The position numbers and the translations under genes were made by a program. A DNA stretch of 64,000 nucleotides from Romanomermis culicivorax. Its lineage: Eukaryota > Nematoda > Enoplea > Mermithida > Mermithidae. Every line of letters starts with the position of its first letter. The stretch's first letter is position 1. This document shows positions 944 through 63,817 of the stretch, one piece after another. The notes below the pieces were generated by a model. That model ran no database searches, was not told where the DNA came from, and saw only the letters and a program-made list of their open reading frames with translations. The stretch covers positions 106,226 through 170,225 of the forward strand of contig CAWUHX010000308.1 of NCBI GenBank assembly GCA_963922205.1, written 5' to 3'.

Positions 944-1100
944 ACACCCTGTAACAAAGACAAAGATTCGAGGCAATTTAAATCGGTGAGCGATTTTTGC
1001 TCCCATTTTTGGGAATCGCGTTCGCACGTTCGCCCGACGTTTTGTAATTTTTGCCAAGAACCCCTATCCGGTATGGTATGGACGGGACTTTGTTGCCAAA
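944..1100 (+). CDS. DGK exon 1: start of first C1 domain
   Basis: Residues 1-52 of the window product. It contains [17 protein letters not shown] followed by [11 protein letters not shown], the first zinc ligands (H-x12-C-x2-C, then C) of a diacylglycerol-kinase C1 finger. The acceptor is TTTTCTAG before 944 and the donor is GTGAGC at 1101. It ends one base into a codon, which is completed by the first two bases of exon 2. The reading frame is open back to the acceptor, so no start codon is expected here. Confidence 0.9.
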
Positions 1101-4100
1101 GTGAGCCAAAATTTGACGTCAGCAAGCCTGGTGTAAAGCTACAGTATACCGTAATTTTGGTCGTTTACACTCTTCAAGTTTGTAAACTACATTACCATAA
1201 ACATTGGTGTAAAGTTACAGTACATCATAATTTTTTACACTTTTCCCAATAACTGTAAATCACGTTATCTTGAACATTGATGTAAAGTTACAGTATACCG
1301 TAATTTTGGTTCATTACACCTTGTGATGTTTGTAAACTACTTTACCATAAACATTAGTGTAAAGTTACAGTATAACGTTTTTTAATTCATCACGATTTTT
1401 CAAGTATGTAAATTACGTTGGGATGGGCATTAGTGTAAAGTTACAGTATACCATAATTTTGGTTCTTTACACTTTTTCATGTTTGTAAATTAGGTTGCCG
1501 TAAACAGTGGTGTAAAGCTACAGTACATCGTAATTATGGTCCTTTACACCTTTTTTTTTCAAGTTTGTAAACTACGTAACCATGAACATTAGTGTAAAGT
1601 TAAAGTATACCATAATTTTGGTTCTTTACACTTTTTCATGTTTGTAAATTAGGTTGCCGTGAACAGTGGTGTAAAGCTACAGTACATCGTAATTATGGTC
1701 CTTTACACCTTTTTTTTAAGTTTGTAAACTACGTAACCATGAACATTAGTGTAAAGTTACAGTATACCATAATTTTGGTTCTTTACACTTTTTCATGTTT
1801 GTAAATTACGTTGCTGTAAACAGTGGTGTAAAGCTACAGTACATCGTAATTTTGGTCCTTTACACCTTTTTTTTCAAGTTTCTAAACTACGTAACCATGA
1901 ACATTAGTGTAAAGTTACAGTATACCATAATTTTGGTTCTTTACACTTTTTCATGTTTGTAAATTACGTTGCCGTAAACAGTGGTGTAAAGCTACAGTAC
2001 ATCGTGATTATGGTCCTTTACACCTTTTTTTCAAGTTTGTAAACTACGTAACCATGAACATTAGTGTAAAGTTACAGTATACCATAATTCTGGTTCTTTA
2101 CACTTTTTCATGTTTGTAAATTACGTTGCCGTAAACAGTGGTGTAAAGCTACAGTACATCGTAATTCTGGTCCTTTACACCTTTTTTTCAAGTTTGTAAA
2201 CTACGTAACCATGAACATTAGTGTAAAGTTACAGTATACCATAATTTTGGTTCTTTACACTTTTTCTTGTTTGTAAATTACGTTGCTGTAAACAGTGGTG
2301 TAAAGCTACAGTACATCGTAATTTTGGTCCTTTACACCTTTTTTCAAGTTTGTAAACTACGTTACCATGAACATTAGTGTAAAGTTACAGTATAGCATAA
2401 TTTCTTTACACTTTCTTCAAAGTTTGTAAATCACGTTATGTTGAACATTGATGTAAAGTTGCAGTGTACTGTAATTTTGGTGCTTTACACTCTTTTAATC
2501 CCGCAGTGCGTTACCATAAGCATTGGTGTAAAGTTACAGTATGCCGTAATTTTGATTCTTTACACTTTTCGGAGTTTGTAAACTATGTTGCTATAAACAT
2601 TACAGTATATTGTAATTGTGGTTCTTTACACTTTTGAAGTATGTAAATTCTGCCATGAAAATTAGTGTAAAGTTGGAGTTTACCGTAAATTTTGTTCTTT
2701 ACACTTTTCAAGTATGTAAATAACGTTGCCGTAAACTTTGGAGTAAAGTTACAGTATACCGCAATTTTGGTGCTTTACACTCTTCCAAGTTTGTAAATTG
2801 AGTTAATATAAACACTAGTGTAAAGTTACAGTAATCGGTTGTTTTTTTGTCCTTTACAGTTTTGCAAGTTTCTGAACAACGTTAACATAAACATTAGTGT
2901 AAAGTTACGGTATACCGTAATTTTGGTCGTTTACACTTTTTTCAATATTGTAAATTACGTTGCCATAAACATTGGTGTAACGTTACAGTATACCGTAACT
3001 TTGATCCTTTACACTTTTTCAGTTTGTAAACCACATTGCCGCGAACATTGGTGTAAAGTTACAGTAAACCGTACTTTCCAATTCTTTACACTTTTTAGTT
3101 TGTAAATTACGATGCCATAAACATTGCGCCCCCGACATGATGTTGAATTTTCCTTGTAAATGGACGACGCGGGAGAGTATGCGACTCGGACGAGTTGACC
3201 TTGACAACGATCAAAATTTCGACGATGTAAACTTGGTGTAAAGCGTAGTGTAAAGTAACTTTTTTTTTCTCGTTGTCGTAGACTCGGCACTATTTACACC
3301 AATGGTTGAAAGGAAATTTGGCCGTCAATTCGAAATGCGTCGTTTGCGACGGCGTTTGCGGTTCTTTACTTCGTTTACAAGATTATAAATGCGTTTGGTG
3401 TAAAGTAACGGTAAGCAGTTTCTAGTGTAAAGTTACAGTAAGCTTCCAGTGTAAAGTTACAGTAGGTAGCGTTTAGTTTAAAATTACAGTAGGAAGCGTT
3501 AAGTGTAAACTTACGGTTGTGAGCTTTCAATTTAAAAGTACAGTATGAAGCTTTTAACTCTGCAAATACAGTAATAAGTTTTTTTGTGTGAAGCTACAAT
3601 AGGCAGCTTTCAGTGTAAAGTTATAGCTTTCAGTGTAAACTTACAAGAAGAAGCGTTCAGTGTAAAGTTGCACTCTGCAGCCTTTGATATAAAATTATTG
3701 TAGGAAGCTTTTCGTGAAAAGGTACAACAAGAAGCTTCCGTGTGAAGTTGCAATAAAAAGCTTTTAGTGTAAAGTTACATTCGAAGCTTTCAGTGTCAAG
3801 CTACAGTAGTAAACATTCAGTGTAAAGTTGGAATTGAAAATATTTAGTGTAAAGTTGCAGTAGTAAACTTTCAGTCTATAATTACAGTAAGAAGCTTTTA
3901 GTGTAAAGTTACAGTAAGAAGCTATCACTCTAAAATCACAGTACTGAACTTTCAGTGTAAAGTTACCGTAAGATGCTTCTAATGTTACAGTAAGAAACGT
4001 TTAGTTTAAAGTAAACGTAAAAAGCTTTTAGTGTAAAGTTACACTTTGAAGTTATCAGTGTAAACTTACAGTAAGAAGTCGCCAATTTAAAGTTACAGCT

Positions 4101-7100
4101 TAAAGCTTTTGGTGATAAGTTACACTAAAAATCTTGTCGTGGAAATTTTCAATAAGAAGCTTCTAGTGTAAAGTTACAGTAGGGTGAAATTAGAATTGCA
4201 AGTCTCAAGTGTAAAGTTACAGTAGAAAGTGCTCTGTGTAAAGTTGTAGCAGGTATCGTTTTGTGTAAATCTACAGTAGGATGGTTTTAGTGTAAAATTA
4301 GAGTTCGAAGCTACTATTGTAAGGCTACAGTAGGTACTTTCAGTGTAGAGCTACATTAGTGTAAAGTTACCGTAAGACGCGTTTAGTGTAAAATTACTGT
4401 AGAAAGGATCTTTTAGTGTAAAGTTGCAGGATGGTGATTTTAGTGTAAAGTTATAATAAGAAGCTTCCGGTGTAGGTGTAAAGTTAGGATGAAATACCGT
4501 ATAAAGTTGAAGTAGGAAACTTTCAGTGTAAAGTCAGAGCAAGCTTCGTATTGTGCAATTACAGCAGTAAATCTTTAGTGTAAAGTTACAGAGAGAAGCT
4601 TTTTATGTAAAGTTACTGTAAGAAGATTTTTGTGTAAGGTTATAATGAGAAGTTTTCAGTGTAAAGTTACAGCGAGAAAATTCAAGTGTAAAGTTATAGC
4701 ATTCAGTGTATAGTTACAGGACGGAGCTTCCGGTGTAAAGTTAGAATGGGAAACTGTATAAACTTGAGTAGGAAACTTTCAGTGTAAACTTACAGTAAGC
4801 TTGCACTGTAAAACAACAGTTTTAAACTTTCAGTGTAAAGTTACAGAGATAAGCTTCTAGTGTAAAGTTACAGTAAGAAGGTTCTAGTGTAATGTTATGA
4901 TAAGAAGCTTTCAGTGTAAAGTTCCAGTTAGGAGATTTTAGCGTTGAGTTATAGCATTTAGTGATAAATTGGGGTAGGAAGTTTTTGGTGTAAAGTTTAT
5001 GCAGGCAGCTTTTGATGTAGAGTTAGATTGAGAAACAGTTTAAATTCGAAGTAAGAAGCGTTCAGTGTAAAGTTGAAGTAAGCTCGTATTATAAAATTAC
5101 AGTAGGAAACTTCCAGTGTAAAATGGGAATGGAAAGCTGTCAGTGTAAAGTTGAAGTAGGAAGCATTTAGTGTAAAGTTACAGTAAGCTTATATTGTAAA
5201 AGTACGCTACAAAATTTTCAGTGTAAAGTTACACCTAGAAGCTTTTGGTGTAAAGTAACAGTTAGGAGCTTTTAGTGTAAACCTTCAGTAAAAAGCATCT
5301 AGTGAGTTTAAAGTCACTGTAAGAAGCTTTTAGTACATGTAGAATTCCAGAGACAACCTTTTGGTGTAAACTTACAGTGAAAAGCATGTGGTGTAAAGTT
5401 GGAGAGAGAAGCGTGAAGTGTAAACTCATAGTTAGAATCTTTTACTGTAAAGCTGCAGTAAGAAGCCTTTAGGCTAAACTTACAGTAAGAATTTTTTGCT
5501 GTAAACTTATAGTAACATGACTTTGGTGTAAAGTTACAATAAACCAGCATTGTAAAATCACAGTAGGAAACTTTCAGTGTATTTTTACAGTAAAAAGCTT
5601 TTAGTGTAAAGTTAATGTGAGAAGGTTTTGGTGTAAAGTTATAGTAAGAAGCCTTTAGTGTAAACTGACAGTAAGAATCCTTTAGTGTAAGGTTGCAGTA
5701 AACCAATGTTGTAAAATCACAGTAGGAAACTTTCAGTGTATTTTTACAGTAAAAAGCTTTTAGTGTAAAGTTAATGTGAGAAGGTTTTGGTGTAAAGTTA
5801 TAGTAAGAAGCCTTTAGTGTAAACTGACAGTAAGAATCCTTTAGTGTAAGGTTGCAGTAAACCAATGTTGTAAAATTACAGTAGGAAACTTTCAGTGTAA
5901 AGTTACAGTAAAAAGCTTTTAGTGTAAAGTTAATGTGAGAAGGTTTTGGTGTAAAGTTACATTAAGAAGCCTTTAGTTTAAACTGACAGTAAGAATTCTT
6001 TAGTGTAAGGTTGCAGTGAACCAATATTGTAAAATTACAGTAGGAAGCTTTCAGTGTAAAGTTACAGTAAAAAGCTTTTAGTGTAAACTTTCTGTGAGAA
6101 GATTTTGGTGTAAAGTTACGGTTGCAAACCTTCAGTGTAAAGTTAACGAAGCCTTCGGTGTAAAGTTACAGTAGACCAAAATTGTAAAACTACAGTAAAA
6201 AATTTTTCAGTGCAAAGTTACAGTAACCAAAATTGTAAACCAACTTTCTACAGATTCACGAATCGTGCAAAAAATTATACGTCAAAAATGATTGTACGTT
6301 AGGACAATGCCCGAATAGTACGCTGAATCCGTACGCCGTCCGACGTTTGAACGCCGACGGCGCGTGCGTTTTGCGCGCGGAATTTTTGACGTCGTCGACG
6401 ACGGAAAACGCCGGCGGAAACGTCGCCGCCGCCGCCGCGACGCCGACGCCCTTATTAATTTTGGTGAATACGCGATCGGGCGACGGACGGCGTGGCGTCG
6501 ACGTTTTGAAAAAATGTAAACGTCTACTAAATCCGTTGCAAGTTTACGATTTGTCGAACGGCGGAGCGGATTTTGGGTGAGTTTTGGGCGATTTTACACT
6601 CAAAAAAGTGTAAAAAATTAAAAAGTTTAAAAAAAATTGCAAAAAAATTTTTTTTGTAAATTTTTGAAAATTTAAAAAAAAAATTTTTTTGTAAATTTTT
6701 GAAAATTTGTACCAAAAATGTTCTGTAAATTTTTTTTAATTTTGTAAAAAAAATTCTCTTAATTTCTGAAAATTTGTACCAAAAAATTTTTTTGTAGTTT
6801 TTTGAAAATTTGTAAAGAAAATTTTTTGTAAAATTTTGATAATTTGTTTAAAAATTTTTTTTTGTAAATGTTTAAAAATTTGTGCTAAAAAGTTTCTCGT
6901 AAATTTTTTTAATTTCGTGAAAAAAATTCTCTTATTTTCTGAAAATTTATACCAAAAAATTTTTTCTGTACTTTTTTGGAAATTTGTAAAGAAAATGTTT
7001 TGTAAATTTCTGAAAATTTGTACCAAAAAATTTTTTGTAAATTTTTTAAATTTTGTAAAAAAATTCTCTTAATTTCTGAAAATTAGTACCAAAAAATTTT

Positions 7101-10100
7101 TCTGTAGTTTTTTGAAAATTTGTAAAGAAAATTTTTTGTAAATTTTTGATAATTTGTTTAAAAATTTTTTTTTGTAAATGTTTGAAAATTTGTACCAAAA
7201 AATTTTTTTGTAGTTTTTTAAAAATTTGTAAAAAAATTTTTTTTTTAATTTTTGAAAATTTAAAGAGAAAATTTTTTGTAAATTTTTGATAATTTGTTTT
7301 AAAAATTTTTTTTTGTAAATGTTTAAAAATTTGTGCTAAAAAGTTTCTCGTAAATTTTTTTAATTTCGTGAAAAAAAATTCTCTTATTTTCTGAAAATTT
7401 ATACCAAAAAATTTTTTCTGTACTTTTTTGGAAATTTGTAAAGAAAATGTTTTGTAAATTTCTGAAAATTTGTACCAAAAAATTTTTTTGTAAATTTTTT
7501 AAATTTTGTAAAAAAATTCTCTTAATTTCTGAAAATTAGTACCAAAAAATTTTTCTGTAGTTTTTTGAAAATTTGTAAAGAAAATTTTTTGTAAATTTTT
7601 GATAATTTGTTTAAAAATTTTTTTTTGTAAATGTTTGAAAATTTGTACCAAAAAATTTTTTTGTAGTTTTTTAAAAATTTGTAAAAAAATTTTTTTTTTA
7701 ATTTTTGAAAATTTAAAGAGAAAATTTTTTGTAAATTTTTGATAATTTGTTTAAAAATTTTTTTTGTAAATGTTTGAAAATTTGTACCAAAAAATTTTTT
7801 TGTAGTTTTTTAAAAATTTGTAAAAAAAATTTTTTTTTTTTAATTTTTGAAAATTTAAAGAGAAAATTTTTTGTAAATTTTTGATAATTTGTTTAAAAAT
7901 TTTTTTTTGTAAATGTTTGAAAATTTGTACCAAAAAATTTTTTTGTAGTTTCTTAAAAATTTGTAAAAAAAAATTTTTTTTTTTAATTTTTGAAAATTTA
8001 AAGAGAAAATTTTTTGTAAATTTTTGATAATTTGTTTAAAAATTTTTTTATGTAAATGTTTGAAAATTTGTACCAAAAAATTTTTTTGTAGTTTTTTAAA
8101 AATTTGTAAAAAAAATTTTTTTTTGTAAATTTTTGAAAATTTAAAGAGAAAATTTTTTGTAAATTTTTGAAAATTTGTACCAAAAAATTTCTCGTAAATT
8201 TTTTTTGATTTTGTAAAAAAAAATTCTCTCAATTTTTCAAAATTTGTACCAAAAAATTTTTTTTGTAAATTTTTTAAAATTAATTAAAAATTTTTTTTTG
8301 TAAATGTTTTAAAATTTGTACTAAAAAATTTCTGGTAAATTTTTTTAATTTCGTAAAAAAATTCTCTTAATTTTTGAAAATTTGTACCAAAAACTTGTTC
8401 GTAAATTTTTTTAAATTTTCAAAATTTTTTTTTTTAAATTCTTTCACGTTTGTAGAACAAATTTTTCTTAAATTTTTTTCAAATTTGTTGAAAAAACTTT
8501 TTTGTAATTTTTGTCATATACTTGTAAAAGAACTTTTTCGAAATATTTCTAAATTTTTTGAAATTTGTAAAAAATTTTGTTTTAAATTTTTCCATATTTT
8601 TTTCGAATTTGTAGAAAAAAACTTTTTTTCAAAGTTGTAAAAAAATTTTTTTGTCAATTCGCATTAAATTTCTTTCAAAAAATTGTTGTACATTTTTTCA
8701 AATTCGTAGAACAAAAATTTTTTGTAAGTCTTTTCAAATTTGTAAAAAAACAACTTTTTTTTATTTTTTTTTTCAAATTTGAAGAAAAAACTTTGCTGTA
8801 AATTTTTTTCAAATTTGTAAAAATATTTTTGTAAAACTTCTCTCAAATTTGTAAAAAAATTCCTGTATATTTTTTCGAATTTGTAAAAAAATAGCAAATT
8901 TTTTCAAAGTTGTAAAAAAAATTTTTTTAACTTGTGTTAAATTTGTGTAAAAAAAAAACATTTTTTTTTAAATTTTTTTCAAATTAAAAAAAAAATTTCT
9001 GTAAAAAAATTGTAAAAAAAGCTTTTTTGTAAATTTTCCAAATTTGAAAAAAGAATTCTATTTGTAGAAAATGCGTTTTTGTAGAAAATTTTCCTGAAAT
9101 TTCTGAAAAAAAATTTCGTAAATTTTCCTCAAATTTGTAATTTTTTTTTAATTAGTGATTTTTTTTATTTTTTTATATTTTTTTATTTTTTTCAAATTTT
9201 TTTTATTTTTTTAAATTTTTTTACAGTTTAAAATTATTTTCGCAATTGCCGACGTTTCGAATTTTGATTTGCGGCGGCGACGGGACCGTGGGTTGGGTGC
9301 TGATGTGTTTGGATCGTTTGAACCTGTTGGCCAAGTGCCAAGTCGGCGTTTTGCCATTGGGCACAGGCAACGATTTGTCCCGGGTTTTGGGTTGGGGCAG
9401 GTCGTTCGAAAAAATCCACAATTTACCATCGATTATTCGTAAAATGGAAAGATCCAGGACGAAACTTTTGGACAGGTGAATTATTTTAATTTTTAATTAA
9501 TTAAATTTTAATTAATTAACTTTTGATTTAATTTTTTTTAATTTCACTTTAATTTTTTTAATTTCAATTTAATTTTTTAATTTCAATTTAATTTTTTTAA
9601 TTTCAGTTTAATTTTTTAAATTTCAATTCAATTTAATTTTTTTAATTTCAATAATTTAATCATTTTGATTTTAATTAAATCATTTTAATTTTAATTAAAT
9701 CATTTTAATTTTAAATTAATTATTAAATTTTTAATTTTTAAATTAATTTATTTCATTATTTTGATCTTACATTTGAATTTCACACAATTTCTGAATTTTA
9801 GAATTAAGTTTCGAACGTTTTGAGTTTTGAACAAGAAAATATTAAAATTTCAGAATTTAAGCTCATTAATTCAAATTTAAAATTTTGATTTGTGCATTAC
9901 AAAATTTAAATTTTCTAAGGCAAAAATGAGAAATTTCATAATTTCAGCTCAAAATTCCAATTTCAAACTTTACATTTAATTCTAATTAAAATTTATAAAA
10001 ATTAAAAATTTAAATTTAACACAATTTTTAGGATTGTAGAATTTTTAAATTCAAGGATTTTAAATTTTATAGAATAAAAATTGGAAATTTTAGAATTTAA

Positions 10101-13100
10101 GGTCAAAGTTCGAATTCAAAATTTCAATTCTGTTTTTTTTCTTCTTTTAATTTTAGTACTTTTCTCTAAAAATTCAAATTTTGAAGGTAAAAAATTTGAA
10201 ATTTTAAAATTGAAGCCCAAAAATCTAATTCCAAATTTAAATTTTGGATTCTAAAATTTTTATGTTCAACAATTTTGAAGCAGAAAAATTTGAAATTTGA
10301 GAATTTAAACTCAAAATTTCTAATTTAAAATTTGAATTTTACATAACTTTTTGTATTTTGGAATTTTTCTCTTCCATGATTTAAATTTTGGAGGAAAAAA
10401 ATTGAAATTTTAGAATTTGAATTCGAAATTCAAATTTCAAATTTGAATTTCTGGATTTCAGAATTAGCCCACAAGAATGTAAATTTTGAAGACGAAAATT
10501 TTAAAATTTTAGAATTCAAGCTCGAAATTCAAGTTTGAATTTTGGGATTCTATAATTTTTCTTCAACAGTTTAATTTTGAATGAAAAAAATTTAAATTTT
10601 AGAATTTAAGGTCTAGATTCAAAAATTTTCAAATTTAGATTTTACACCATTTTTTGGATTCTAGAATCTTTCTCTCGAAGAATTTAAATTTTGAAGAATA
10701 AAAATTTCAAATTTTAGAATTTACACACAATATTCTATAATCTGAAATTTGAATTTTTTCTAAATATTAGAATTTTTCGAAAATTGAAATTTTGAAGAAA
10801 AAAAATTTCACATTTTAGAATTAAAGTCATAAATTCTAATGTCAAATTTGAAATTTTGCATTTTTGAATTTTTCTTTAAAAATTTAAATTATGAAAGAGA
10901 AACTTGGACGTTTAAGAATTTAAGCACGAAATTCAAATTTCAAATTTAAATCTTACTCTATTTTTTGAATTCTAGAATTTTTATTTTCAAGAATTTAAAT
11001 TTTTAAGGAGGAAAATTTGAAATTTCACAATTTAAGTTTAAATTTCAAAATTGAATTTTGCACAATTTTTCGCATTGTAGAATTTTTAAATTCAAGAATT
11101 TAAATTTTGAAAGAGGAAAATTTGAAATTTTAGAATTTAAGCTCAAAATCCAAATTTTAAATTTGAATTTTCTGATTGTAGAATTTTTTTAAGAATGTAA
11201 ATTTTAAACAAGAAAAATTTCAAATTTTAAAATTTAGGCCGAAAATCAGAATTTGAATTTTTTGGATTCTAGAATTTTCTCCAAAAATTTAATTTTAAAT
11301 GCAAAAAAATGAAATTTTAAAATTTAAGCTCAAAATTCTAATTAATTCTAATTTCAGAATTTTTCTCCAAGAATGTAAATTTTGAAGACGCAAAATTCGA
11401 AATTTTAGAATCCTAATGCGAGTTTTGGGATTCTAGAATTTTTTCCTAAAAATTTAATTTTGAAGGAAAAAAATTTGAAATATTACAGTTTAAGCCCAAA
11501 ATTCAATTTTTAATTTTCAATTTTACGTTATTTTTCCATTTTTCAACGATTTAATTTTTGAATGAGAAAAATTTAATTAAAATTTTAAAATATAAGCTTG
11601 AAATATTGATTTGAAATTTTAAAATTGTACACTGCAAATTTTAGAATTTTTTCTATAATTCTGAAAAAAATCCATTTTTCTTATTTATAAAAAAAATTTA
11701 AAATTTTTCAATTTTCAAAAAAAAAATTAAAATTTAGTTTTTGAATTCTAATTTTAAATTTTAAAATTTAGCTTTTAAATTCTGATTTTAAATTTTAAAA
11801 TTTATCATTTTAAATTCAGGTGGAGTATTTTAGCGTATGAAGATCCGAAGTGTCGAATTCGAAATTCTAATTTTGGAAAAAAATCCTCGGCTATAATGGG
11901 TCGTTATCAAGAATCGGTCGCTCATCATATTTCGCAAGTTTTATCATCGCAAGATTATAGCGTAGTTATATCGTCATCGCAGTAAGAAATTTCAAAATTT
12001 AAAAAAACGCAAGAAATTCTAGAATTTTTTACCCAAAATGTGTAAAAATTCATGAATTTTGACCTGAAAATCATGAAATTCTATAATTTTTTCAGGCCAA
12101 AAAATTCGAAAATCCATATAAATTTCTAGAATTTCCAGGTCAAAAAAACGAAAATTCGTAATTTTCGAATAAAATTTTGAACTTAAAGTCATGAAATTCT
12201 AGAATTTCACCTTAAAAAAATGGCCAAAATTTTTGATTTTCGAATTGGATTCCGTGCTTAAACTCATGAATTTCTATAATTTTCAGTTGAAAAAAGCAAA
12301 AATTCATGAATTTCGAATTAGAATTTTGAAGTTTAAGTCATGAAATTCTAGAAATTTTAGCCCCAAAAATATTCATAATTTTCTAATAAATTTTGAACTT
12401 CGAGTCATGAAATTCTTGAATTTTTAGACCAAAAAATGTGAAACTTTATTCGATTAGAATTTTGAACTTGATTCATGAATTTTAGAATTTTCAGCCCTAA
12501 AAACGAAAATTCATTATTTCCGAATAGAATTTTGAGCTTTAGGTTATGAGATCGTAGAATTTTCAACTCAGAAAAGCAAAAATTCGTGATTTTCCAATAA
12601 AATTTCGGGCTTAAAGTCATGAAATTTTAGAATTTTCACCCCAAACAATGTGAAAATTCATGATTTTCGGACTCGAAACTCATGAAATTCTAGAATTTTC
12701 GGCTCTAAAAAGCGAAAATTCATGATTTTCGAATAGAATTCTAAAATTTTAAGTACAAAAATTCACATTTCAGAGTAGGATTTTAAGCTTAAAATTCGAA
12801 ATTCTCATCAAATTTGGATGAGAAATTTTAGAGTTTTAATTTCAAAAAGTATAAAATTTTATCAATTTCGAATTTTAAATTCAAAAATTTTCGTTTTAAA
12901 ATTAGAAATTTGTGCCGAATTTTGAAAATTTTGACATCAATAAAATGGAATTTTCTTCTATTCATAGCCCAGAATTCTATTTTTTTTTAAAAAAATCCAA
13001 AATTCGCGCTGTAAAAATTAAATTTTAAATTGAAATTTTAAATTTTAAAAGTTTAAATTTCATTAAGTGTTAAATTTTAAAAAGTTTTTTTTGTACTTTT

Positions 13101-16100
13101 TCTGACAAAAAAAAAATTTTTTTATAGAATTTTATGCGAAACAGTCAAAAATTTTATAACCGACGTCGGAAATTCGTTGGAAACGTTTCGTCCGACGGCG
13201 AATATCGACGGTGGTTGTTCAACTTCGACGGATTTTAATATTTCTGAACAAGTTAGAAAAATCAGAATTTTTTGAGAATTTTTGTCAAAAAACTTGAATG
13301 ATTTTTTTGTAATTCTAATGAAAATTTGAATTTTGTGCAATTTTTCCTGGAAAAAATTGATGAATTTAATAAAATTCTGCTCAAAATTTGAATTTTTTAG
13401 AATTTTTACCGAAAATTTGAATTTTCTGCAATTTTTCTTGGGAAAATTGATGAATTCTGTGACATTTTGTTCAAAATTTGAATTTTTTAGAATTTTCTCT
13501 GGAAAAATTTAAAAATATGTTGAAATTCTACTGAAAATGTGAATTTTCTGCAATTTTTATCCGGAAAAAATTGATGAATTTTGTGACATTCTGCGCAAAA
13601 TTCGAATTTTTTTAAATTTCATCCGGAAAAATTGAAAAATCGGTTTAAATTGCAATGAAAATTTGAATTTTCTGCAATTTTTTTACGGAAAAAGTTAATG
13701 AATTTTGTGAAATTCTGCTCAAAATTTGAAGTTTTTAGAGTTCAGTTGGTAAAAATTGAAAAATTTGTCGAATTTTAGCTGAAAATTTGTATTTTCTGCC
13801 ATTCTTCTTGGAAAAAATTGACGAATGATGTGAAATTCTGCTCAAAATTTGAATTTTTTAGGATTTTCTGCGGAAAAATTGAAAAATTTGTTACCGAAAA
13901 TTCGAATTTTCTCTAGTTTTTCTTGGAAAAAATGATGAATTTTGTGAAATTCTGCTCAAAATTTGAATTTTTTAGAATTTTCTTGGAAATACTTGAATAA
14001 TTTGTTGAATTTCTACTGGAAATTTGATTCTCACGCAATTTTTCTTGGATAGAATTGATGAATTTTCGTGACATTCTGTTCAAAATTTGAATTTTTTCTC
14101 TGGAAAAATTGAAAAATTTGTTGAAATTCTACTGAAAATTTGAATTTTCTGCAATTTTTAATTGGAAAAAAATTGATGAATTTTGTGACATTCTGCTAAA
14201 AATTTGTTTTGTTTTTAGAATTTTCTCAAGGAAATTTAAAAATTTGTTAAAATTCTACTCAAAATTTAAATTTTCTGCAATTTTTACTTGTGAAAATTTA
14301 TGAATTTTGCGACAATCTGCTCAAAATTTGTTTTTTTTAGAATTTCGCCTGAAAAAATTGAAAGATTTGTTGAAATCTTACTTAAAATTTAAATCTTCGG
14401 CAATTTTTTCTCCAAAAAATTGATGAATTTTGTGAAATTCTGCTCAAAATTTAAATTTTTTAGGATTCGCCCCAAGAAAAATTGAAAAACTTGTTGCATT
14501 TCTATTGAAAATTTGAATTTTCTCCAATTTTACCTTGAAAAAATTGATGAATTTTGTGGAATTCTGCTCAAAATTTGAATTTTCTAGAAATTTCTCCGGG
14601 AAAAATTCGAAATTTTTCTTGAAATTCTCCTGAAAATTTTATTTTTTTTTATTATTCGAGAAAAAGATTGAGCGATTTCAAAAAAATTTTTCCATAAATT
14701 CCATTTTTGATTCTTTTTTGTTTCAGTTTTTGATCGAAATTTTAATTTTTGTTTGATTAATTTTGATTAAATTTTAATTTTTTTTCGTTTTTGCTCGAAA
14801 TTTGATTTTTTTCTATTTTTGGTAGATTTTTTTTCTAATTTTTGGTCGAAAATTCAAAATTTTTAATTTTTGGTCGAAATATTAATTTTTTTTGATTTGT
14901 GGTCGAAATTTCAAATTTTTTTCATTCTTGGTCGAAATTTAAATTGTTTTTTGATCAAAATAAAAAAAATTATGCATTTTTAAAAATTTTTTGATTCAAA
15001 AAAAATTTAAGTTAAAAAATCAATAAATTAATTTAAATTAATTAATCAATTGATTATAGATTTAAAAATTTTGAATTTTCTCTGTTTTTTGTCCCGAAAG
15101 CAGATCGAAATTTCGGATTTCAGAAGAAAAAAATCCAAACTTTGAATAAAATTTCAAAAATTAATATTCTAACTAAAAATTTAGACTTTAGAATTTTGAA
15201 TTAAACTTTGAAATTTTGAAAAGATTTTACAGAAAAAAAAATTTAGTTTTCCAATTTATAATGAAATTTCAAAAAAATTTTTTTTTCAATTTTTATTGAA
15301 AAATTTGAATTTTTTTTTTTTAAAAAATTCGCAAATTTTAAAAATTTTAAAATTTAATTTTTTTCAAATTTTTTAGTGCGAAATTTTACGTTAGAAATAA
15401 ATTTGAGCCGAAATTTCGAATATATTTTCACTAAAAATTTAAAATTTTGAATTTTGACTCAAAATTTGAATTTATGAAATTTTAAAAATTTCGGGTGAAA
15501 AATTCGAATTTTGCAATTTTTCTATTATGAAATTTGTAGATTTTATTATTTTATAAACGTTTAATCTTTAATTTTTAATTTTGAAAAATTGCGAAATTTT
15601 AAAGAATTTTGGAATATTGGAAAAATTTTGGAATTGAAAAAAAAAATTCAAAATTTCGAAAAAAATTTAGAATTTTCAAAAATTTGAATTTTTTTCAAAT
15701 TTTTTAGTGCGAAATTTTACGTCAAAAATTGGACAATTTAGTTTCGACTTTGAAACAAGAATCTTTAGAAGCGAAACGTTATTCGTCGTCCGACGAAGAT
15801 CGTCAAAAAATTTTTCGTCGAACGGACGTCGTCGGCGATTCGAAAGAATTCGTCGAGAATTCATCTAGAATGGGTTCGATTAAAAAAGCTCCCAGAAAAG
15901 TGACGAATTTTAATTTTTTTTTTTAAATTTTGAATTTTTCGTAGAAATTTTAAATTTTTGATTTTTTGTAAAAATTTTTATTTTCGGTCAAAATTTTAAT
16001 TTTTTCCAATTTTTAGTAGAAATTTCAATTTTTTTCATTTTTTGCTCGATAAATCCAATTTTCTATCTTTTAATTTTTCTTGATATTTTTATTAATTTGT

Positions 16101-19100
16101 CGTCGAAAATTTATTTTTTTTTATTTTGATCGAAATTCCAATCATTTTAAATTTTTGATTGAAATTCTAATTTTTTCAACTTTTTGATTGAAATTTTAAT
16201 TTTTCCTTAATTTAATATTTTTGGTCGGAATATTTCCTTATTTTTGGTCTAAATTTCATTTTTTTAAATTTTCGGTAAAAATTTTTTTCTTTAATTTTTG
16301 ATTAAAATTTTCTCTATCTGTGGTCGATATTTTAATTTTTGCTCAGAATTTGAATTTCTTTTCAATTTTTGGCTGAAATTTTAATTCTCTTTTTTTTTAA
16401 TTTTTAGTAGAAGATTTAATTTTTTTTAAATTTTTGGCAGAAATGTTAATTTTTGCATGAATTTTTGTCGAAATTTAATTTTTTTCCTAGTTTTTAGTGG
16501 AATTTCTAATTTTTTCAATGTTTTCTGGAAATTTTAATTATTTTTTAATTTTTGGTCAAAATTTTAAAATTTTTCTATTTTCAGTAGAAATTTCAATTTT
16601 TTTCATTTTTTTGCTGAAAAAATCCAATTCTCTTTCTTTTAATTTTGCCTGATATTTTTCTTAATGTTTCGGCGAAAATTTATTTTTTTTATATTTTGAT
16701 CGAAATTCCAATCATTTGAAATTTTTGATTAAAATTCTTATTTTTTCGAATTTTTGATTCAAATTTTGATTTTTCCTTAATTTAATATTTTTGGTCGAAA
16801 TATTTCCTTATTTTTGGTCTAAATTTCATTTTTTTAAATTTTCGGTAAAAATTTTTTTCTTTAATTTTTGATTAAAATTTTCTCTATCTGTGGTCGATAT
16901 TTTAATTTTTGCTCAGAATTTGAATTTCTTTTCAATTTTTGGCTGAAATTTTAATTCTCTTTTTTTAATTTTTAGTAGAAGATTTAATTTTTTTTAAATT
17001 TTTGGCAGAAATGTTAATTTTTGCATGAATTTTTGTCGAAATTTAATTTTTTCCTTAGTTTTTAGTGGAATTTCTAATTTTTTCAATGTTTTCTGGAAAT
17101 TTTAATTATTTTTTAATTTTTGGTCAAAATTTTAAATTTTTTCTATTTTTGGTCGAAATGTCAATTTTCTTTTTTAAATTTTCGGTAAAAAATTTTTTGC
17201 TCGTTTATTGGTTGAAATTTTGATTAAAAAACCAGAAAAGTGAGTAATTTTAATGTTTAAATTTTTAATTTTTCGTAGAAATTTTAAATTTTTGTTTTTC
17301 TGTAAAAATTTAATTTTTGGTCAAAATTTTAATTTTTTCCCATTTTCAGTAGAAATTTCAATTTTTTTCATTTTTTTGCTGAAAAAATCCAATTCTCTTT
17401 CTTTTAATTTTGCCTGATATTTTTCTTAATGTTTCGGCGAAAATTTATTTTTTTATATTTTGATCGAAATTCCAATCATTTGAAATTTTTGATTAAAATT
17501 CTTATTTTTTCGAATTTTTGATTCAAATTTTGATTTTTCCTTAATTTAATATTTTTGGTCGAAATATTCGCTTATTTTTGGTCGGAATTTAATTTTTTTA
17601 AATTTTCGGTAAAAATTTTTTTTGTTTAATTTTTGATTAAAATTTTCTCTATCTGTGGTCGATATTTTAATTTTTGCTCAAAATTTGAATTTCTTTTCAA
17701 TTTTTGGCTGAAATTTTAATTCTCTTTTTTTAATTTTTAGTAGAAGATTTAATTTTTTTTAAATTTTTGGCAGAAATGTTAATTTTTGCATGAATTTTTG
17801 TCGAAATTTAATTTTTTTCCTAGTTTTTAGTGGAATTTCTAATTTTTTCAATGTTTTCTGGAAATTTTAATTATTTTTTAATTTTTGGTCAAAATTTTAA
17901 AATTTTTCTATTTTCAGTAGAAATTTCAATTTTTTTCATTTTTTTGCTGAAAAAATCCAATTCTCTTTCTTTTAATTTTGCCTGATATTTTTCTTAATGT
18001 TTCGGCGAAAATTTATTTTTTTTATATTTTGATCGAAATTCCAATCATTTGAAATTTTTGATTAAAATTCTTATTTTTTCGAATTTTTGATTCAAATTTT
18101 GATTTTTCCTTAATTTAATATTTTTGGTCGAAATATTCGCTTATTTTTGGTCGGAATTTAATTTTTTTTATTTTTCGTAGAAATTTTATTTTTTTCAACT
18201 TTTGGTAGAAATTTTATATTTTCTTAATTTTTTTTATTTCTGGGTGGAAATTGTAATTTTTCTCTTATTTGATCAAAATTCTAATTTATTTCTAATTTCT
18301 GTCTACTTTTTTTTATTTGTTCACATTTTTGGTAGAAATTTAATTTTAGGTCGAAATTTCAATTTTTTGTTGTGGAATTTTTGACTTTTTTTATTTTTTG
18401 GTCGAAGTTTTTTTTTCTTCTTTTTTTATTTCTAGTAGCAAATTTAATTTTTTCTATTTTTGGTCGAAATTTAATTTTTTTTTTTGATTCTTGTTTTTTT
18501 TTTAATTTTAATTTTTTTTAATTTTTGGTCGAAATTTAATTTTTTTTTTTTTATTCTAGTTTTTTTTTATTTTTTGATGGAAATTTAATTTATTTTTAAT
18601 TTTTGGTCGAAATTTAATTTTTTTTTTGATTCTAGTTTTTTTTTAAATTTTTGATGGAAATTTTTAATTTTTTTCAATTTTTGGTCGAAATTTAAATTTT
18701 TCAAATTTTTACTTCTTTATTAATTTTTGGTCGAAATTTCAATAATTTTTTTTTTATTCTAGGAATTCGTTCAACGCGAACATTTAATGTCCAGGGCTGA
18801 TAGTTTAAAAAAAGCCGTCAAACAAATTATCGATCAAGCTTCGAAAGCTATTGACGAACAAAATGAGCAAACGATGTAAAGTAGAAAAAGTGGAATTTTA
18901 ATTTAATTAATTAATTAATTAATTTAATTAATTAAAGTTGCATTTTTGTTCAAGAATTCAATTTTGTACAATTTTTCGCTATTTGCAGCATCAAAATATG
19001 CAAATTTTCCGCATAAAATGCACATATTTTTAATTTTAATTTCAAATTTAATTTTACTTTTTTTTCTAATTAATTTTATTTTATTTAATCATTCATTTGA

Positions 19101-40100: not shown

Positions 40101-43100
40101 TATGACGCGAATCAATTGACGTCAGCAATAGGAAAATTGTGTTTACACTCGTCTTGCTGACGTCATTTATATGTGAGAAATTAACTTTTACACTATTGCT
40201 AATCATGATTATTTTTTTATTAAACCTACACTTTACACTCGCGCAATGTTCGGTAAAAAATTCACTTTACACCCCCGATTGATGACGTCATATTAATTTT
40301 TTTACGTCAGCAACGACTTTACAATTTTCTAATATTTTTTTTCTTTCTCCTAGGAGTCGCAGCAAACTTTTCATGATGTACGGCGTTTTGGCCGGCAAAG
40401 AATTGATGCACAAAACGTTCAAAAATTTGGACCAAAGGATAGCGTTGGAGTGCGACGGCAAATTGATCAATCTACCTCAATTGCAAGGCATCGTCGTTTT
40501 GAATATTCCCAGGTGTGTGTAAAGTAGGCGAAAAAATTCCGATTCCGATTCTCGTGAGTGTAAACCAATCGATTCCGATTCTCTTACTACCTGTCAGTGT
40601 AAAGAAACCCATTCCGATTTTCGTCAAGTTTTAAGTGTAAAGCAGCCCATTCCGATTCCAATTCATGCGACTGTAAACCAATCGATTCGGATTCTTTTTT
40701 TTCGCAACGTAAACTAATCGATTCCGATTCTTTCTATGTTGTAATTGTAAAGCAGATGATTCGGAGTGTAAAGAAACCGATTCCGATTCTTGCGAGTGTA
40801 AAGCAATCCATTCCGATTGTCATCTTTTCCTCAGTGTAAAGAGACCGATTCCGACTCTTTCCTTGTTCTAAGTGTAAAGCTGTTGATTCGGAGTGTAAAC
40901 AAATCGATTTCGATTCTTTCTATGTTGTAAGTCTAAAGCAGATGATTCGGAGTGTAAAGAAACCGATTCCGATTCTTGCGAGTGTAAGGCAAACGATTCC
41001 GATTGTCATCTTTTTCGCAGTGTAAACAAACCGATTCCGATTCTTGTGAGTGTGAAGCAGTCGATTCCGATTCTTTCTCCTCATCGTGAACTAATCGATT
41101 CCGATTCTTTCTATGTTGTAAATGTAAAGTTGATGATCCGAAGTGTAAAGAACCCGATTCCGATTCTTGCGAGTGTAAAGCAATTTGGTTCCGATTGTCA
41201 TCTTTTCCTCAGTGTGAAGAGACCGATTCCGACTCTTTTCTTGTTCTAAGTGTAAAGCTGTTGATTCGGAGTGTAAACAAACCGATTCCGATTCTTCTAT
41301 AGTTCTGGTTGTAAAGAAATCGATTTCGATCCATTTTTTGTTCCAAGTGTAATCTACCTCAATTGCAAGGCATCGTCGTTTTGAATATTCCCAGGTGCGT
41401 CTGTTTGTGTAAAGTAGGCGAAAAAATTCCGATTCCGATTCTTGCGAGTGTAAACCAATCGATTCCGATTGTCATCTTTTTCGCATTGTAAACAAACCGA
41501 TTCCGATTCTTGCGAGTGTAAAGCAATCGATTCCGATTGTCATCTTTTTCGCAGTGTAAACAAACCGATTTTGTTCTTCCCAATGTAAAGAAATCTATTC
41601 AAATTCTTTCCATGTTGCAAGTGTAAAGCAGTTGATTCGAACTGTAAAAAGTACCGATTCCGATTCTTGTACGTGTAAAGCAATCGATTCCGATTTTTGC
41701 ATCTTCCCAGTGTAAAGGAATCGATTCCTATTCTTTCCGTGATGTAAGTGTAAAGCAATCGATTCCGATTCTTCTATACTTCCGATTGTAAAGAAATAGA
41801 TTCCAATTCTTTGTAGTGTAAAAGAACCGATTCCGATTCTTTTGTAGTTTCCCAGTGTAAAGATGTCGATTCCGATTCTTCTATTTTTCCAAGTGTTAGC
41901 AAACTGAATCCGATTCTTTCGAGTGTAAAACGAATCGATTCCGATTCTTTTCGTGTCGTAAGTGTAAAGTGTAAATGAATCGATTCCGATTCTCTCATTT
42001 TGCCAGTGTAAAGAAATCGATTCCGATTCTCCAATGGTTCCAACTGAAACGGAATCGATTCCCTTTCTCCTATCGTTGCAAGTGTAAACAAACCGATTCC
42101 GATTCTTCTATAGCTCCGAGTGTAAAGAAGTCGATTCCGATTCTTTTCGTGTTGTAAGTGTAAAGTGTAAATGAATCGATTCCGATTCTCTCATTTTGCC
42201 AGTGTAAAGAAATCGATTCCGATTCTCCAATGGTTCCAACTGAAACGGAATCGATTCCCTTTCTCCTATCGTTGCAAGTGTAAACAAACCGATTCCGATT
42301 CTTCTATAGCTCCGAGTGTAAAGAAGTCGATTCCGATTCTTTTCGTGTTGTAAGTGTAAAGTGTAAATGAATCGATTCCGATTCTCTCATTTTGCCCGTG
42401 TAAAGAAATCGATTCCGATTCTCCAATAGTTCCAACTGTAACGGAATCGATTCCCATTCTCCTATTGTTGCAAGTATAAACAAACCGATTCCGATTCTTC
42501 TATAGCTCCGAGTGTAAACAATTCGATTCCGATTCTTTTCGTGTTGTAAGTGTAAAGTGTAAATGAATCGATTCCGATTCTCTCATTTTGCCAGTGTAAA
42601 GAAATCGATTCCGATTCTCCAATGGTTCCAACTGAAACGGAATCGATTCCCTTTCTCCTATCGTTGCAAGTGTAAACAAACCGATTCCGATTCTTCTATA
42701 GCTCCGAGTGTAAAGAAGTCGATTCCGATTCTTTTCGTGTTGTAAGTGTAAAGTGTAAATGAATCGATTCCGATTCTCTCATTTTGCCCGTGTAAAGAAA
42801 TCGATTCCGATTCTCCAATAGTTCCAACTGTAACGGAATCGATTCCCATTCTCCTATTGTTGCAAGTATAAACAAACCGATTCCGATTCTTCTATAGCTC
42901 CGAGTGTAAACAATTCGATTCCGATTCTTTCCGTGTTGTAAGTGTAAAGTGTAAATGAATCGATTCCGATTCTCTCATTTTGCCAGTGTAAAGTAGTCGA
43001 TTCCGATTCTTTTTAGTTCCGAGTGTAAAGTAATCGATTCCGATTCCCATATCCATCATTGAAGTGTAAAATAGTCGATTTTGATTCTTCTGTTCTTCCA

Positions 43101-51782: not shown

Positions 51783-54700
51783 CTTCAAAATGAGAAAATA
51801 TTTTGCAAAAATTGCGTCATCATCGTCATCGAATACAAACTTACATGAACAATTCGGCTTCCAAACTTTCGCCGGCCAACAACGGGCTCGTCGTGTAAAT
51901 TTCGTCTTTACAATGCGGAGTATGTAACTGGCAAGGCGGTAAAACCACCGTTCCGCCCGCATTGTTCAAAACTGAAGCTCGAATGGATATTATCAACGTT
52001 CCATCGGATAAGAGGAGCGAATTATTCGGGAAAAGAATGGAATTGTCGGAAAATGACGTGTAACTTTTGCCGGGGGTACGTTCGCCACCCGTCGCCCTTA
52101 GTCCACCATAGCTCGCATGCCCATCGGATGAAAGCGTTATATCCTCAGGAAACAAGTAAATGCCATTGGGACCGGGGATACCTTGAAAAATTTTGCCATC
52201 GGGTGAAATGCCACTGCCATTTGAAAACAGGTATTGAACGCGTTTGACTGTTGGGGGCACTCGGGACGTAATGACCAACGTCCCATCGGGCAACAAAAGT
52301 GAATTATTCGGGAACAAAACTGAATTATCGGCAAAAATTACGTAACCTTGATCGATCGATTTGCCGCCCGAAGCCCTAGGTCCGCCATACATGGGCCTCC
52401 CATCGACCTGGACTCGTATATCATTGCCGAACAAAAAACTGCCATCGGGTTGAGCCGCCCCTCGTAGGACACTCCCATCGGCCATAACCCCCGTCCCATT
52501 CGAAAAAAGATATTGCACTCGTTTGGCGATGAACATCGGGTACGTCGACGGCGCATATTTCGTAACAATCATTATACCATCATCCAATAGAAGGCTATTA
52601 TTGGGCAATAAAATGGATTCATCTTCGAACATTTTATAGCCGTTGGGAGCTCCGTCGATCAGCTTGGCTCCTTTAGCCCGAACGCCGTCGTAAATGGCCG
52701 TCCCTTTAGGCGTCACTTCGATTTGTTCGTCCTCGAATAGAAAATTTCCGTGCGGCGTCCTTTTCAATTGTCGCACACGATTGTGTTGATCGATCATCGT
52801 TCCATTGGAGAAAAGTTCAACGACGCCTTTGACGGCCGGCATTTCGAAAGTTGTGGCGTTGGCGTATTTGGCGACTATTAACGTGCCGTCGGGCAACAAA
52901 TAACTATTGTTCGGGAATAGGAATGAATTGTCGAAAAATTTTTTGGTGTTGTCGCTTAGTCGCGTACCTTCGCTGGAAGCGACACCCAAATAGTGGGCGG
53001 TGCCGTTCTTTTTGACATTGATTTCATATTGCGTAAACACGTAACTTCCGTCAGGCTGTTTGACGCCTTTAATAATTGTGCTATTGGGCAATATCCCACT
53101 GCCATTGGAATAAAGCATTACCAAGCCCGAAAATTTCGGCATATTTGGCTTATAATCCGCTTTCGATGGTATTATAAGATGACCATCGGACGTTAACAAT
53201 GTATCATTCGGATACAAAATTGATTTATCGGGAAAAAGTTTCAAGCCGCCGTCTAAAATTTTCGTCACCTGAATTGTACGCCGCCCGTAATCGGCTCGAC
53301 CATCGGGCGTCAATTTGATTTCGCCGGGAAATAAGACGCTGCCGTCGGCTTGCATCGTGCCGGCTATGATGGTGCCGTCACCCAAAATACTGGTGCCGTT
53401 GGTGTAGTAACGATCAATAGTTCGTATTGTCGGGATGGCAAATGTGCCTATGATTAAGCATAGTCTATGTTACAGTATAGCAGATGGTCAAATATAGTGT
53501 CTTAAGGAAACAGGAATCTGGGTCGCTGGACAATGGTTCAGCATTATGCAATGGTTAAGCATTGGTCTGGTGGCTAATGATTAAGCATAGGCTATGGTTA
53601 AGGATAGGAGAAATTTGGTCCTTGTTAATCATTGCACATCAACCTTGTGCTTAAACATTGTGTATGCTGAAGGATTGCATAATACCTCTATCATTAATAG
53701 TTGCCGACAACCCAACAGCATACTAGATTTCTATTTGCATAACACACAATATTTGATCACAACTCTCTTCTATCCTTAACCATTGCCTATGCTTAATCAT
53801 TACCCATCAACCCTATGCTTAACCATTGCATATGTTAACCATTGCCCGACATAGTGTCGGTCAGGAATGGAATCATTGGTCAGGAATGCTAAGCTTAACC
53901 ATTGCCTATCCTGAACCATTACCTATGCTTAATCATTGGTCATCAACCCTATGCTTAACCATTGCGTATGTTGAACTGTTGCCTGACAACTCTATCATTA
54001 ACAATTGCCGACCAACCATAGGGCTGTTTCGCAATAGTTCAACATATGCAATGGTTAAGCATAGGGTTGATGGGTAATGATTAAGCATAGGCAATGGTTA
54101 AGGATAGCAGAAAACTTGTTGTCGAATATGGCGTCTTAAGCAAACAGGAATCTGGTATGTTGTTGGCTCCTCAGCAATTGTTAAAGATACAACTGTGGGG
54201 CAATGCTTCAACATACACAATGGTTAAGCATAGGGTTGATGACCAATGATTAAGCATGGGCAATGGTTAAGCATAGGAGAAGACTCATGCTCAAATATAG
54301 TGTCTTAAGAAAATAGGAATCGGATATGCTGTTGGCTCCTTGGCAATTGTTAATGATAGAGTTGTCAGGCAATGGTTCAACTTACGCAATGGTTAAGCAT
54401 AGGGTTGATAACTAATGATTAAGCATAGGCAATGGTTAAGCTTAGCATTCCTGAGCAATGATTAAGCATACCTTATGTTTATGCATAGAAAAGACGTATC
54501 ATCCTATATAGAGTCTTAAGGAAACAGCAAGCTGGCACGGAATGGGCTACTGAGCAATGGTTCAGGATATGCAATGGTTAAGCATAGCATTGATCAGCAA
54601 TGATTAAGCATAGGCAATGCTTAAGGATGAGAGAAGAATTTTGCTCAGATACGGTATCTTGAAGAAAACCGGAATGAGCTATTGGGCAATGGTTTAGCAC

Positions 54701-56420: not shown

Positions 56421-56522
56421 CTGAAAAAGTACCAATCTGAATACGACAGCTATAGTTTTGGTAGTTACAGTTACAGTAAGAGATATTTTTTTAAAAAGGA
56501 ACTGTATCACTGTTCTACAAAA

Positions 56523-56654: not shown

Positions 56655-56699
56655 CTGAAAAAGCATGGCTCTGGGTAGAGAAGTCCCTGGAAAGTATAG

Positions 56700-62454: not shown

Positions 62455-63580
62455 GTTTCATACTGTATTTTTTCGAAAGGAATCTCACAAAAATGGCTTA
62501 CTGTAGTTCACTGTAGTTTCCTACTGTAATTTTTTCTGGAGAAATTCTACAAAAACGACTTACTGTAGATTAATGTATTTTCCTACTGTAACTTTTTCTT
62601 GAAATTTAAAATTTTACAAAAACGACTTACCGTAGGTTACTGTAGTTTCATACTGTATTTTTTCGAGAGGAATCCTACAAGAATGGCTTACTGTAGTTCA
62701 CTGTAGTTTCCTACTGTAATTTTTTCTGGAGAAATTCTACAAAAACGACTTACTGTAGATTAATGTATTTTCCTACTGTAACTTTTTCTTGAAATTTAAA
62801 ATTTTACAAAAACGACTTACCGTAGGTTACTGTAGTTTCATACTGTATTTTTTCGAGAGGAATCCTACAAAAATGGCTTACTGTAGTTCACTGTAGTTTC
62901 CTACTGTAATTTTTTCTGGAGAAATTCTACAAAAACGACTTACTGTAGATCAATGTATTTTCCTACTGTAACTTTTTCTTGAAATTTAAAATTTTACAAA
63001 AACGACTTACTGTAGGTTACTGTAGTTTCATACTGTAACTTTTTCGAGAGGAATCCTTCAAAAATGACTTACTGTAGTTCACGGTAGTTTCCTACTGTAA
63101 TTTTTTCTGGATAAATTCTACAAAAACGACTTACTGTAGATTAATGTATTTTCCTACTGTAACTTTTTCTTGAAATTTAAAATTTTACAAAAACGACTTA
63201 CCGTAGGTTACTGTAGTTTCATACTGTATTTTTTCGAGAGGAATCCTACAAAAATGGCTTACTGTAGTTCACTGTAGTTTCCTACTGTAATTTTTTCTGG
63301 AGAAATTCTACAAAAACGACTTACTGTAGATCAATGTATTTTCCTACTGTAACTTTTTCTTGAAATTTAAAATTTTACAAAAACGACTTACTGTAGGTTA
63401 CTGTAGTTTCATACTGTAACTTTTTCGAGAGGAATCCTTCAAAAATGACTTACTGTAGTTCACGGTAGTTTCCTACTGTAATTTTTTCTGGATAAATTCT
63501 ACAAAAACGACTTACTGTAGATTACTGTATTTTCCTACTGTAGGTTACTGTATTTTCATACTGTAATTTTTTTTTACCAG
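62455..63580 (+). repeat. TACTGTAG tandem array, right part
   Basis: Nearly identical units of about 180 bp containing GAGAGGAATCCTACAAAAAT, GGCTTACTGTAGTTCACTG and TTCTTGAAATTTAAAATTTT recur from the element to about 63520. They are more homogeneous than the left part. The array runs straight into the acceptor of the MAP kinase kinase exon (TTTTTTTTTACCAG). Confidence 0.9.
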
Positions 63581-63817
63581 AGAATCAGGGTCACTTTGAA
63601 CAACGAAGAACAAAAGCGAATGTTGATCGAATTGAACGCCAGTATGCAAAGCGGCCAGTGTCCGCAGATGGTCAAGTTTTTTGGCGCCATGTTCAAAGAA
63701 GGCGACGTTTGGCTTTGCATGGAAGTGATGGACATGTCTTTGGACAAATTTTATAGAAATTGCGTCGATTATAATCTACAAATTTGCGAACCCGTGCTAG
63801 GTTTCATAGCTTATTCT
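63581..63817 (+). CDS. MAP kinase kinase (MKK3/MKK6-like) internal exon, partial gene
   Basis: 79 codons, phase 0 as drawn. It reads RIRVTLNNEEQKRMLIELNA, then CPQMVKFFGAMFKEGDVWLC and MEVMDMSLDKFYRNCVDYN. This spans the helix-C to hinge region of a MAP kinase kinase N-lobe. VK(R)IR after the catalytic Lys, GDVW(I/L)CME and MD-x-SLDKFY are hallmarks of the p38-activating MKK3/MKK6 class (C. elegans sek-1 type), as opposed to the MS-x-S-F-DKFY of MKK4. The donor is GTGAGT at 63818. The exon with the glycine loop and catalytic Lys was not found upstream. It may lie in the N gap or before a very long intron. The rest of the kinase is beyond the window. Confidence 0.92.

Follow-up and report, generated by a model that had tools for sequence, protein, structure and literature searches.

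The DNA analysed here is a stretch of 64 kb from the mermithid nematode Romanomermis culicivorax (GenBank assembly GCA_963922205.1, contig CAWUHX010000308.1, positions 106,226 to 170,225 of the forward strand), which in its full length is referred to as the window. The subject is a gene on the + strand for a diacylglycerol kinase (DGK), which runs on past the left edge of the window, and the tandem repeats within its introns, some of which contain copies of the splice junctions that they adjoin.

The DGK gene and its introns

Within the window the DGK gene has 17 exons and 16 introns, every one of which joins in frame, and it encodes a product of 914 amino acids with two C1 stretches, DAGK_cat and DAGK_acc (PF00130, PF00781 and PF00609, all above the cut-off). 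The closest relative of the product is P0001, with 49% identity across 98%, the best among the matches listed, and the alignment of the two is ungapped right around the junctions discussed here, including LNIPS|YQGG. The named proteins among the best 120 of 2692 matches are mostly DGK delta or eta. For the judgement of conserved residues the product was aligned with eight homologues, giving nine sequences. Arrays detected by Tandem Repeats Finder (TRF) occupy 80% of the DGK intron length and 3% of the length of its exons. The features of the gene that are referred to below are as follows.

944..1100, + strand: earliest DGK exon within the window (C1 domain), with its donor at 1101 (GTGAGC), in frame, matching P0001 across the junction
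1101..3098, + strand: intron 1, 1998 bp, 99% covered by TRF arrays
3099..3126, + strand: head of exon 2, encoding CKLRCHKH(C) of the C1 zinc site; final member of the intron-1 array
3236..3281, + strand: intron 2, 46 bp, holding GTGTAAAGTAAC
3398..3410, + strand: tail of exon 3 (CKVT); opening member of the intron-3 array, with the next copy 27 bp on
3411..6253, + strand: intron 3, 2843 bp, with a 27-bp unit
10082..11627, + strand: intron 5, with tentative decayed copies of nt 2-59 of exon 6
15320..15398, + strand: displaced copy in intron 7, of acceptor 7 and 22 nt of exon 8; source 15647-15729
17219..17430, + strand: displaced copy in intron 8, of the exon-8 tail, donor and intron; source 15875-16096
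41351..41578, + strand: displaced copy in intron 15, of the exon-15 end, donor and intron; source 40469-40696
46155..46295, + strand: final DGK exon, coding up to the stop TGA at 46293-46295

As a separate observation, intron 11 (21971-32619) is 10.6 kb long and A-rich, with hardly any T in its + strand (AT skew of about 0.9), and 99% of it is tandem repeat.

Copies of splice junctions within the introns

The search for copies of an intron's own junctions covered the 30 junctions of 15 introns, the 46-bp intron 2 being omitted from every copy test, and skipped 30 to 40 intron bases at either intron end. With a query of 14 exon nt and 8 intron nt, and with the 14 other long introns and 40 dinucleotide shuffles of the own intron as controls, copies were found at five of the 30 junctions, in five of the 15 introns: acceptor 1, donor 3, acceptor 7, donor 8 and donor 15. 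Each of these outscores all 14 other introns and all 40 shuffles, which bears out an earlier note, made from the sequence of the window, in so far as it had reported such matches for kinase introns 1, 3, 7, 8 and 15. The best match has four mismatches in 22 for acceptor 1 (with 11 sites at five mismatches or fewer), three for donor 3 (15 sites), none for acceptor 7, six for donor 8 and two for donor 15. With the same query the other 25 junctions do not stand out over other introns or shuffles.

The exon side was also searched by itself, with 30 nt of exon (60 nt for donor 15), gapped alignment and 1000 shuffles, and the observed score was equalled by no shuffle for acceptor 1 and donor 15, by one for donor 3, by three for acceptor 7 and by 15 for donor 8. 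Taken over all donors with 45 exon nt, the mean own-intron score is 13.60 against 10.15 for other introns (permutation p 0.00035), a result driven mostly by donor 15; for the acceptors the same comparison is weak (11.67 against 10.59, p 0.047). Windows from exon interiors, when compared with the flanking introns, exceeded all 40 shuffles in none of 81 comparisons. Two further candidates were left uncounted, these being donor 14, which is weak (equalled by 25 of 1000 shuffles), and donor 9, which with 30 nt is equalled by a fraction of 0.03 of 60 shuffles but for which three of 14 other introns are equally good.

It is in introns 1 and 3 that the junction lies inside the repeat unit itself, so that the unit is made of an exon end with its splice site and runs in register with the exon, as in an exon-junction variable number tandem repeat (VNTR). 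The unit of intron 1, of about 77 bp, joins about 49 nt of the intron end to 28 nt from the start of exon 2. The intron holds 24 copies of this exon-2 head, with 2 to 11 mismatches in 28, and the exon-2 head itself stands as the 25th copy, 76 bp beyond the last intronic one and in register with it; the TRF array (1129-3126) extends 28 bp into exon 2. The 27-bp unit of intron 3 comprises the last 13 nt of exon 3, GTAAG and 9 further nt, and with up to eight mismatches in 19 it is found at 101 sites, 100 of them intronic and the other the exon copy, with 65 of the 100 site-to-site steps measuring exactly 27 bp. The donor position holds GT at 68 of the 101 sites and GTAAG at 22, and the TRF array (3398-6173) extends 13 bp into exon 3.

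Introns 7, 8 and 15 have one displaced copy of a junction apiece, and their satellite units are not built from junctions. In intron 7 the acceptor with 22 exon nt has been copied once, about 330 bp upstream. The copy in intron 8 takes in 25 exon nt (with a 4-nt gap), the donor and about 197 nt of intron, within a duplicate of 212-222 bp that sits 1340 bp downstream of its source. In intron 15 the last 44 nt of exon 15 are repeated 882 bp downstream with 44 of 44 identical, followed by the donor and intron.

Intron 5 may be a sixth, decayed case, tentatively and by its sequence. Its best score against nt 2-59 of exon 6 is 23, reached by none of 1000 shuffles (shuffle maximum 21), and it holds 11 copies against a shuffle mean of 1.1 and maximum of 4 in 20 shuffles, a copy density that is however matched by intron 8 (6.6 versus 6.5 per kb). 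A small 34-bp TRF array overlaps the exon-6 head by 13 nt, and the 22-nt junction query found nothing in this intron. Likewise a small 18-bp TRF array overlaps the exon-5 head by 14 nt, with acceptor 4 finding no support in the 22-nt junction test.

The coding content of the copied exon ends bears on the direction of copying. Residues C40, K41, H45, K46 and C48, encoded by the exon-2 head, are invariant in the nine aligned sequences, as are C124 of the exon-3 tail and residues within the copied part of exon 15; since the copied ends encode invariant residues, the exon is the likely source. Where the unit consensus departs from the exon, it does so at third codon positions and without changing the amino acid (CGA/CGT in intron 1, and in intron 3 GTA/GTT and ACG/ACA); the sole exception is one site of intron 1 with an almost even split (54% versus 46%), at which a bare majority would alter a residue. 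With the exon base at that site the units translate as CKLRCHKH and CKVT, the same as the exons. In single intron-1 units the differences from the exon are spread evenly over codon positions 1, 2 and 3 (41, 37 and 42), as expected for non-coding copies, and all 24 units carry T in place of an A of the exon, so that this array probably derives from one founder that was amplified within. Divergence is uneven among the copies, from the complete identity of the 44 nt in intron 15 to the 2 to 11 mismatches in intron 1. The direction from exon to array can be stated with confidence for introns 1, 7 and 15 and with fair confidence for intron 8, and it probably holds for intron 3.

Directly observed in the DNA are the copies with their register and exon content, and also the sequences of the decoy splice sites that they carry. 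Decoys were scored with a matrix from 16 introns that included the real sites, which were themselves scored leave-one-out, a procedure that slightly favours displaced copies; for intron 3, 93 of the 100 intronic sites were scored and seven that are off register or overlapping were left out. By sequence score the weakest real donor is equalled or exceeded by 60 of these 93 decoy donors and the median by 25, with none reaching donor 3. Of the 24 copies in intron 1 nine match or outscore the real acceptor; 23 have no YAG, yet AG is retained in 14, and the one with YAG is the last unit (3023), which scores 8.4 against 3.0 for the real acceptor at 3099. The donor columns of intron 3 are not depleted (G 0.81, T 0.86), and selection against decoys is on these sequences no more than a possibility. 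The displaced sites are intact in intron 7 (7.6 against 6.7 for the real site) and in intron 15 (9.4 against 10.9), whilst in intron 8 the displaced donor at 17240 (GTGAGT, 8.8) is above the real donor at 15900 (GTGACG, 2.1). A frame continued beyond donor 3, 8 or 15, or entered at the inner acceptor of intron 7, reaches a stop codon in 9 to 24 nt. For intron 1 the check covered four of the 24 inner acceptors: from three of them the frame stops ahead of the real exon, while from the fourth, at 3023, it stays open, though use of this site would add 76 nt and shift the frame.

Shared repeats and other genes in the window

It had been claimed in the earlier note that six or more introns of three genes are related in this way to their junctions, and this holds for five introns of one gene, the two other genes failing on the exon side. 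The rows for those genes are given here.

53428..53487, - strand: putative acceptor of a minus-strand open reading frame; exon starts at 53447; the array matches the intron side only
63581..63817, + strand: MKK6-like exon; upstream array without an exon-side match

The array before the MKK exon does not match its junction as had been proposed, with an exon-only score of 9, under the shuffle mean of 11.5, and a score of 15 for 20 exon nt with 20 intron nt that is equalled by eight of 100 shuffles. For the minus-strand gene the part of the proposal that stands is an intron-side match (score 19, none of 100 shuffles), which rests on 16 intron nt and a few exon nt; the part that does not is the exon side, with a score of 13 equalled by 16 of 100 shuffles. 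A junction-derived origin is thus rejected on the exon side for both. Several long runs of G and of C lie at 61971-62264, between two blocks of the MKK-upstream array. The open frames of 459 and 542 amino acids on the minus strand at 50405-53469 have internal protein repeats, with borderline Pfam matches for the longer and none for the shorter, and at a guess they possibly encode a repeat-rich surface or secreted protein.

Each intron was also said to have a different repeat family. This is only partly so, as the 16-mer GTGTAAAGTTACAGTA is common to introns 1 and 3, and AAAGTTACAGTAAGAA occurs twice in intron 3 and nine times, inverted, in the MKK-upstream array. The whole unit of intron 3 never exceeds a z of 4 against that array, so that the sharing is of a short core only. 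The 12-mer GTGTAAAGTAAC of intron 2 also occurs, without mismatch, within the tail of exon 3. GTTACAGTA and GTGTAAA cores are found in several arrays, one of which precedes another gene, and GTGTAAA/TTTACAC is much more frequent than expected in introns 1, 3, 13, 14, 15 and 16. Such shared cores make some exchange or common origin among the arrays likely. The decamer AGTTACAGTA or its complement is present in five stretches of the window, which lie inside as well as outside genes (intron 1, intron 3, 46295-47600, 56250-56480 and 59620-63900).

Elsewhere in the window an interstitial block at 56601-57700 contains 122 copies of TTAGGC on the + strand; TTAGGC is the telomere repeat of C. elegans (PMC12921731, as given in the part of that source consulted), and the block may mark an old chromosome end or a fusion. 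Exactly 100 N at 58826-58925, within an AT-rich stretch, are probably a scaffold gap.

Origin of the copies and comparison with known systems

Intron lengthening is usually ascribed to transposons and drift. For the DGK gene the reading that we favour, at a probability of about 0.77, is that its introns were enlarged by ordinary tandem duplication and unequal exchange, with founding copies that straddled splice junctions. The steps of duplication and exchange, the short ancestral introns and the use of the outermost site are what we infer from the copies described above. The introns would have begun short, with lengths of some 46 to 90 nt, as intron 2 with its 46 nt still is; for intron 1 an ancestral length of about 79 nt is estimated (one unit and the unique start). 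In so short an intron a duplication of 27 to 80 bp that spared the mRNA would mostly have to straddle a junction, and the founding copy would carry an exon end because the permitted duplications mostly span a junction. The mRNA would stay intact if the complete exon retained the outermost site, be it the first donor or the last acceptor, with the inner copies turning into decoys and the array then expanding from within. Later and longer duplications, of about 330 to 1340 bp, would sometimes straddle junctions as well, as may have happened in introns 7, 8 and 15.

This can be put in numbers. When the duplicated piece is 77 bp and the intron 79 nt, 98% of the permitted placements span a junction; with a 27-bp piece the share is 72% for a 46-nt intron and 44% for a 93-nt intron. 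In a simple neutral simulation, in which introns of 46-150 nt grew to 2.5 kb (nine settings, 150 introns each, no decay, assumed length distributions), 95 to 100% of them acquired a copy of at least 13 exon nt. Since the neutral model predicts at least the observed number, targeting of junctions is not needed. A process specific to junctions, such as breaks at R-loops or paused splicing, would turn splice junctions into hot spots of tandem duplication and would suit the fact that donors and acceptors are both hit, at several levels of divergence, with exon interiors uncopied. The missing interior copies are uninformative, however, because selection would purge duplications that are wholly exonic, and with the neutral model alone yielding more cases than are seen, we regard such a process as quite improbable.

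Copying from array to exon, with dispersed repeats that invaded the introns and overwrote or happened to match the exon ends, is likewise improbable. The GTTACAGTA and GTGTAAA cores in several arrays speak for it, and it is a possible account for intron 3, where just 13 exon nt are shared; but C1 residues encoded by the head of exon 2 are invariant, the tail of exon 15, which is conserved coding sequence, has a copy identical at 44/44 positions, the consensus differences are synonymous bar the one nearly tied site, and the sharing with the MKK-upstream array stops at a short core. The abundance of GTGTAAA/TTTACAC, and the 8-bp inverted ends (GTGTAAAG...CTTTACAC) of the intron-1 unit, which could as such be inserted, bring introner-like mobile elements to mind, and yet the copies lie head-to-tail in register and include exon coding DNA, which makes insertion very hard to credit. 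Chance likeness between AT-rich exon ends and AT-rich arrays accounts for the MKK match and may account for part of the intron-5 and donor-8 signals. As an explanation of the whole it is very improbable, given that five cases beat both the shuffle and the other-intron controls, that introns 1 and 3 show register and overlap of the TRF array with the exon, and that the donor-8 copy belongs to a larger duplicate; for acceptor 1 and donor 15 the shuffles already refute it.

Several results weigh against growth from junction-straddling duplications. The arrays of introns 1 and 3 are not independent births, because they have the 16-mer in common, and the exon part of the intron-3 unit is short. With exon flanks of 60 or 90 nt donor 8 and acceptor 7 cease to stand out, and donor 8 is in any case the weakest of the five. 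At both of these lengths another intron, to judge by copy counts intron 1, scores higher for the exon-3 tail (21) than intron 3 does (19), the copies for the 60-nt tail numbering 20 against 26; it is possible that the tail of exon 3 forms part of the unit of intron 1 too (WCKVT is common to both), with alignments that score 14 to 19. The earlier note had taken the same repeats away from these genes as a point that would count against it, and within the window this is partly what is seen, in that a short core from the unit of intron 3 is met again ahead of another gene. Finally, five (perhaps six) of 15 introns have copies, which is fewer than simulated, so that one has to suppose either that copies decayed in the AT-rich arrays or that selection acted against decoys.

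On balance it is most likely that tandem duplication including splice sites enlarged these introns, at donors and acceptors alike, and left many decoy sites, as the earlier note had supposed. The part of its idea that finds no support is that junctions are a general source of satellites, as ten of the 15 long introns are without a secure copy, only two arrays have a junction inside the unit and two of the three genes fail on the exon side. That junction-seeded tandem duplication is a general route from short to long introns across the lineage, leaving own-junction arrays that decay, is a tentative extension to which we give somewhat less than even odds; if true, the repeats would record the growth of each intron and the disregard of the spliceosome for dozens of adjacent decoys.

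Of known systems the closest is a human VNTR in CBS, c.1444_1467+7(16-21), in which a 31-bp tandem unit present in 16-21 copies crosses an exon-intron boundary (PMC2630376, from the part of that source available), as do the units of introns 1 and 3; we read its name as a split of 24 exon nt and 7 intron nt. As far as that source goes it is one case in one gene, polymorphic in people, whereas the DGK gene has two arrays, one of donor and one of acceptor type, with up to about 100 copies, and three displaced copies besides. The human CBS variant 844ins68 is a 68-bp duplication of the intron 7/exon 8 junction that creates competing splice sites, and from the same part of PMC2630376 it is a single duplication with no array, unlike introns 1 and 3. 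Tandem genomic duplication under the AGGT model is, according to the portion consulted of PMC3443670, a genuine route of intron gain, and resembles the DGK case in that tandem duplication and splice-site choice keep the mRNA intact; that model creates a new intron within an exon, whereas here existing introns are enlarged, the units being intron with an exon end and the displaced copies lying within introns whose own donor and acceptor are retained.

Intronic minisatellites of C. elegans (CeRep25B and others) are associated with alternative splicing (PMC4039745) and are, like the DGK arrays, both nematode and intronic; the available part of that report describes no derivation from flanking junctions. 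The gene and exon arrays of Tetrahymena (PMC6564038, in the part available) are different from junction-seeded arrays in introns. In the open-licence literature, at the level of titles and the starts of abstracts, no description of junction-seeded satellites as a mode of intron growth was found. As far as these searches show, what is new here is the occurrence in five introns of one gene, at both junction types and with up to about 100 copies, together with the view that seeding by junctions is unavoidable in short introns. The source of some intronic arrays can thus be read directly, as constrained coding DNA trapped inside them, and could record intron growth. The gene also offers natural tests of splice-site choice, in the roughly 100 donor copies of intron 3 and in the inner donor of intron 8 that outscores the real one, and the neutral model yields a simple rule that can be checked, namely that junctions should seed short introns.

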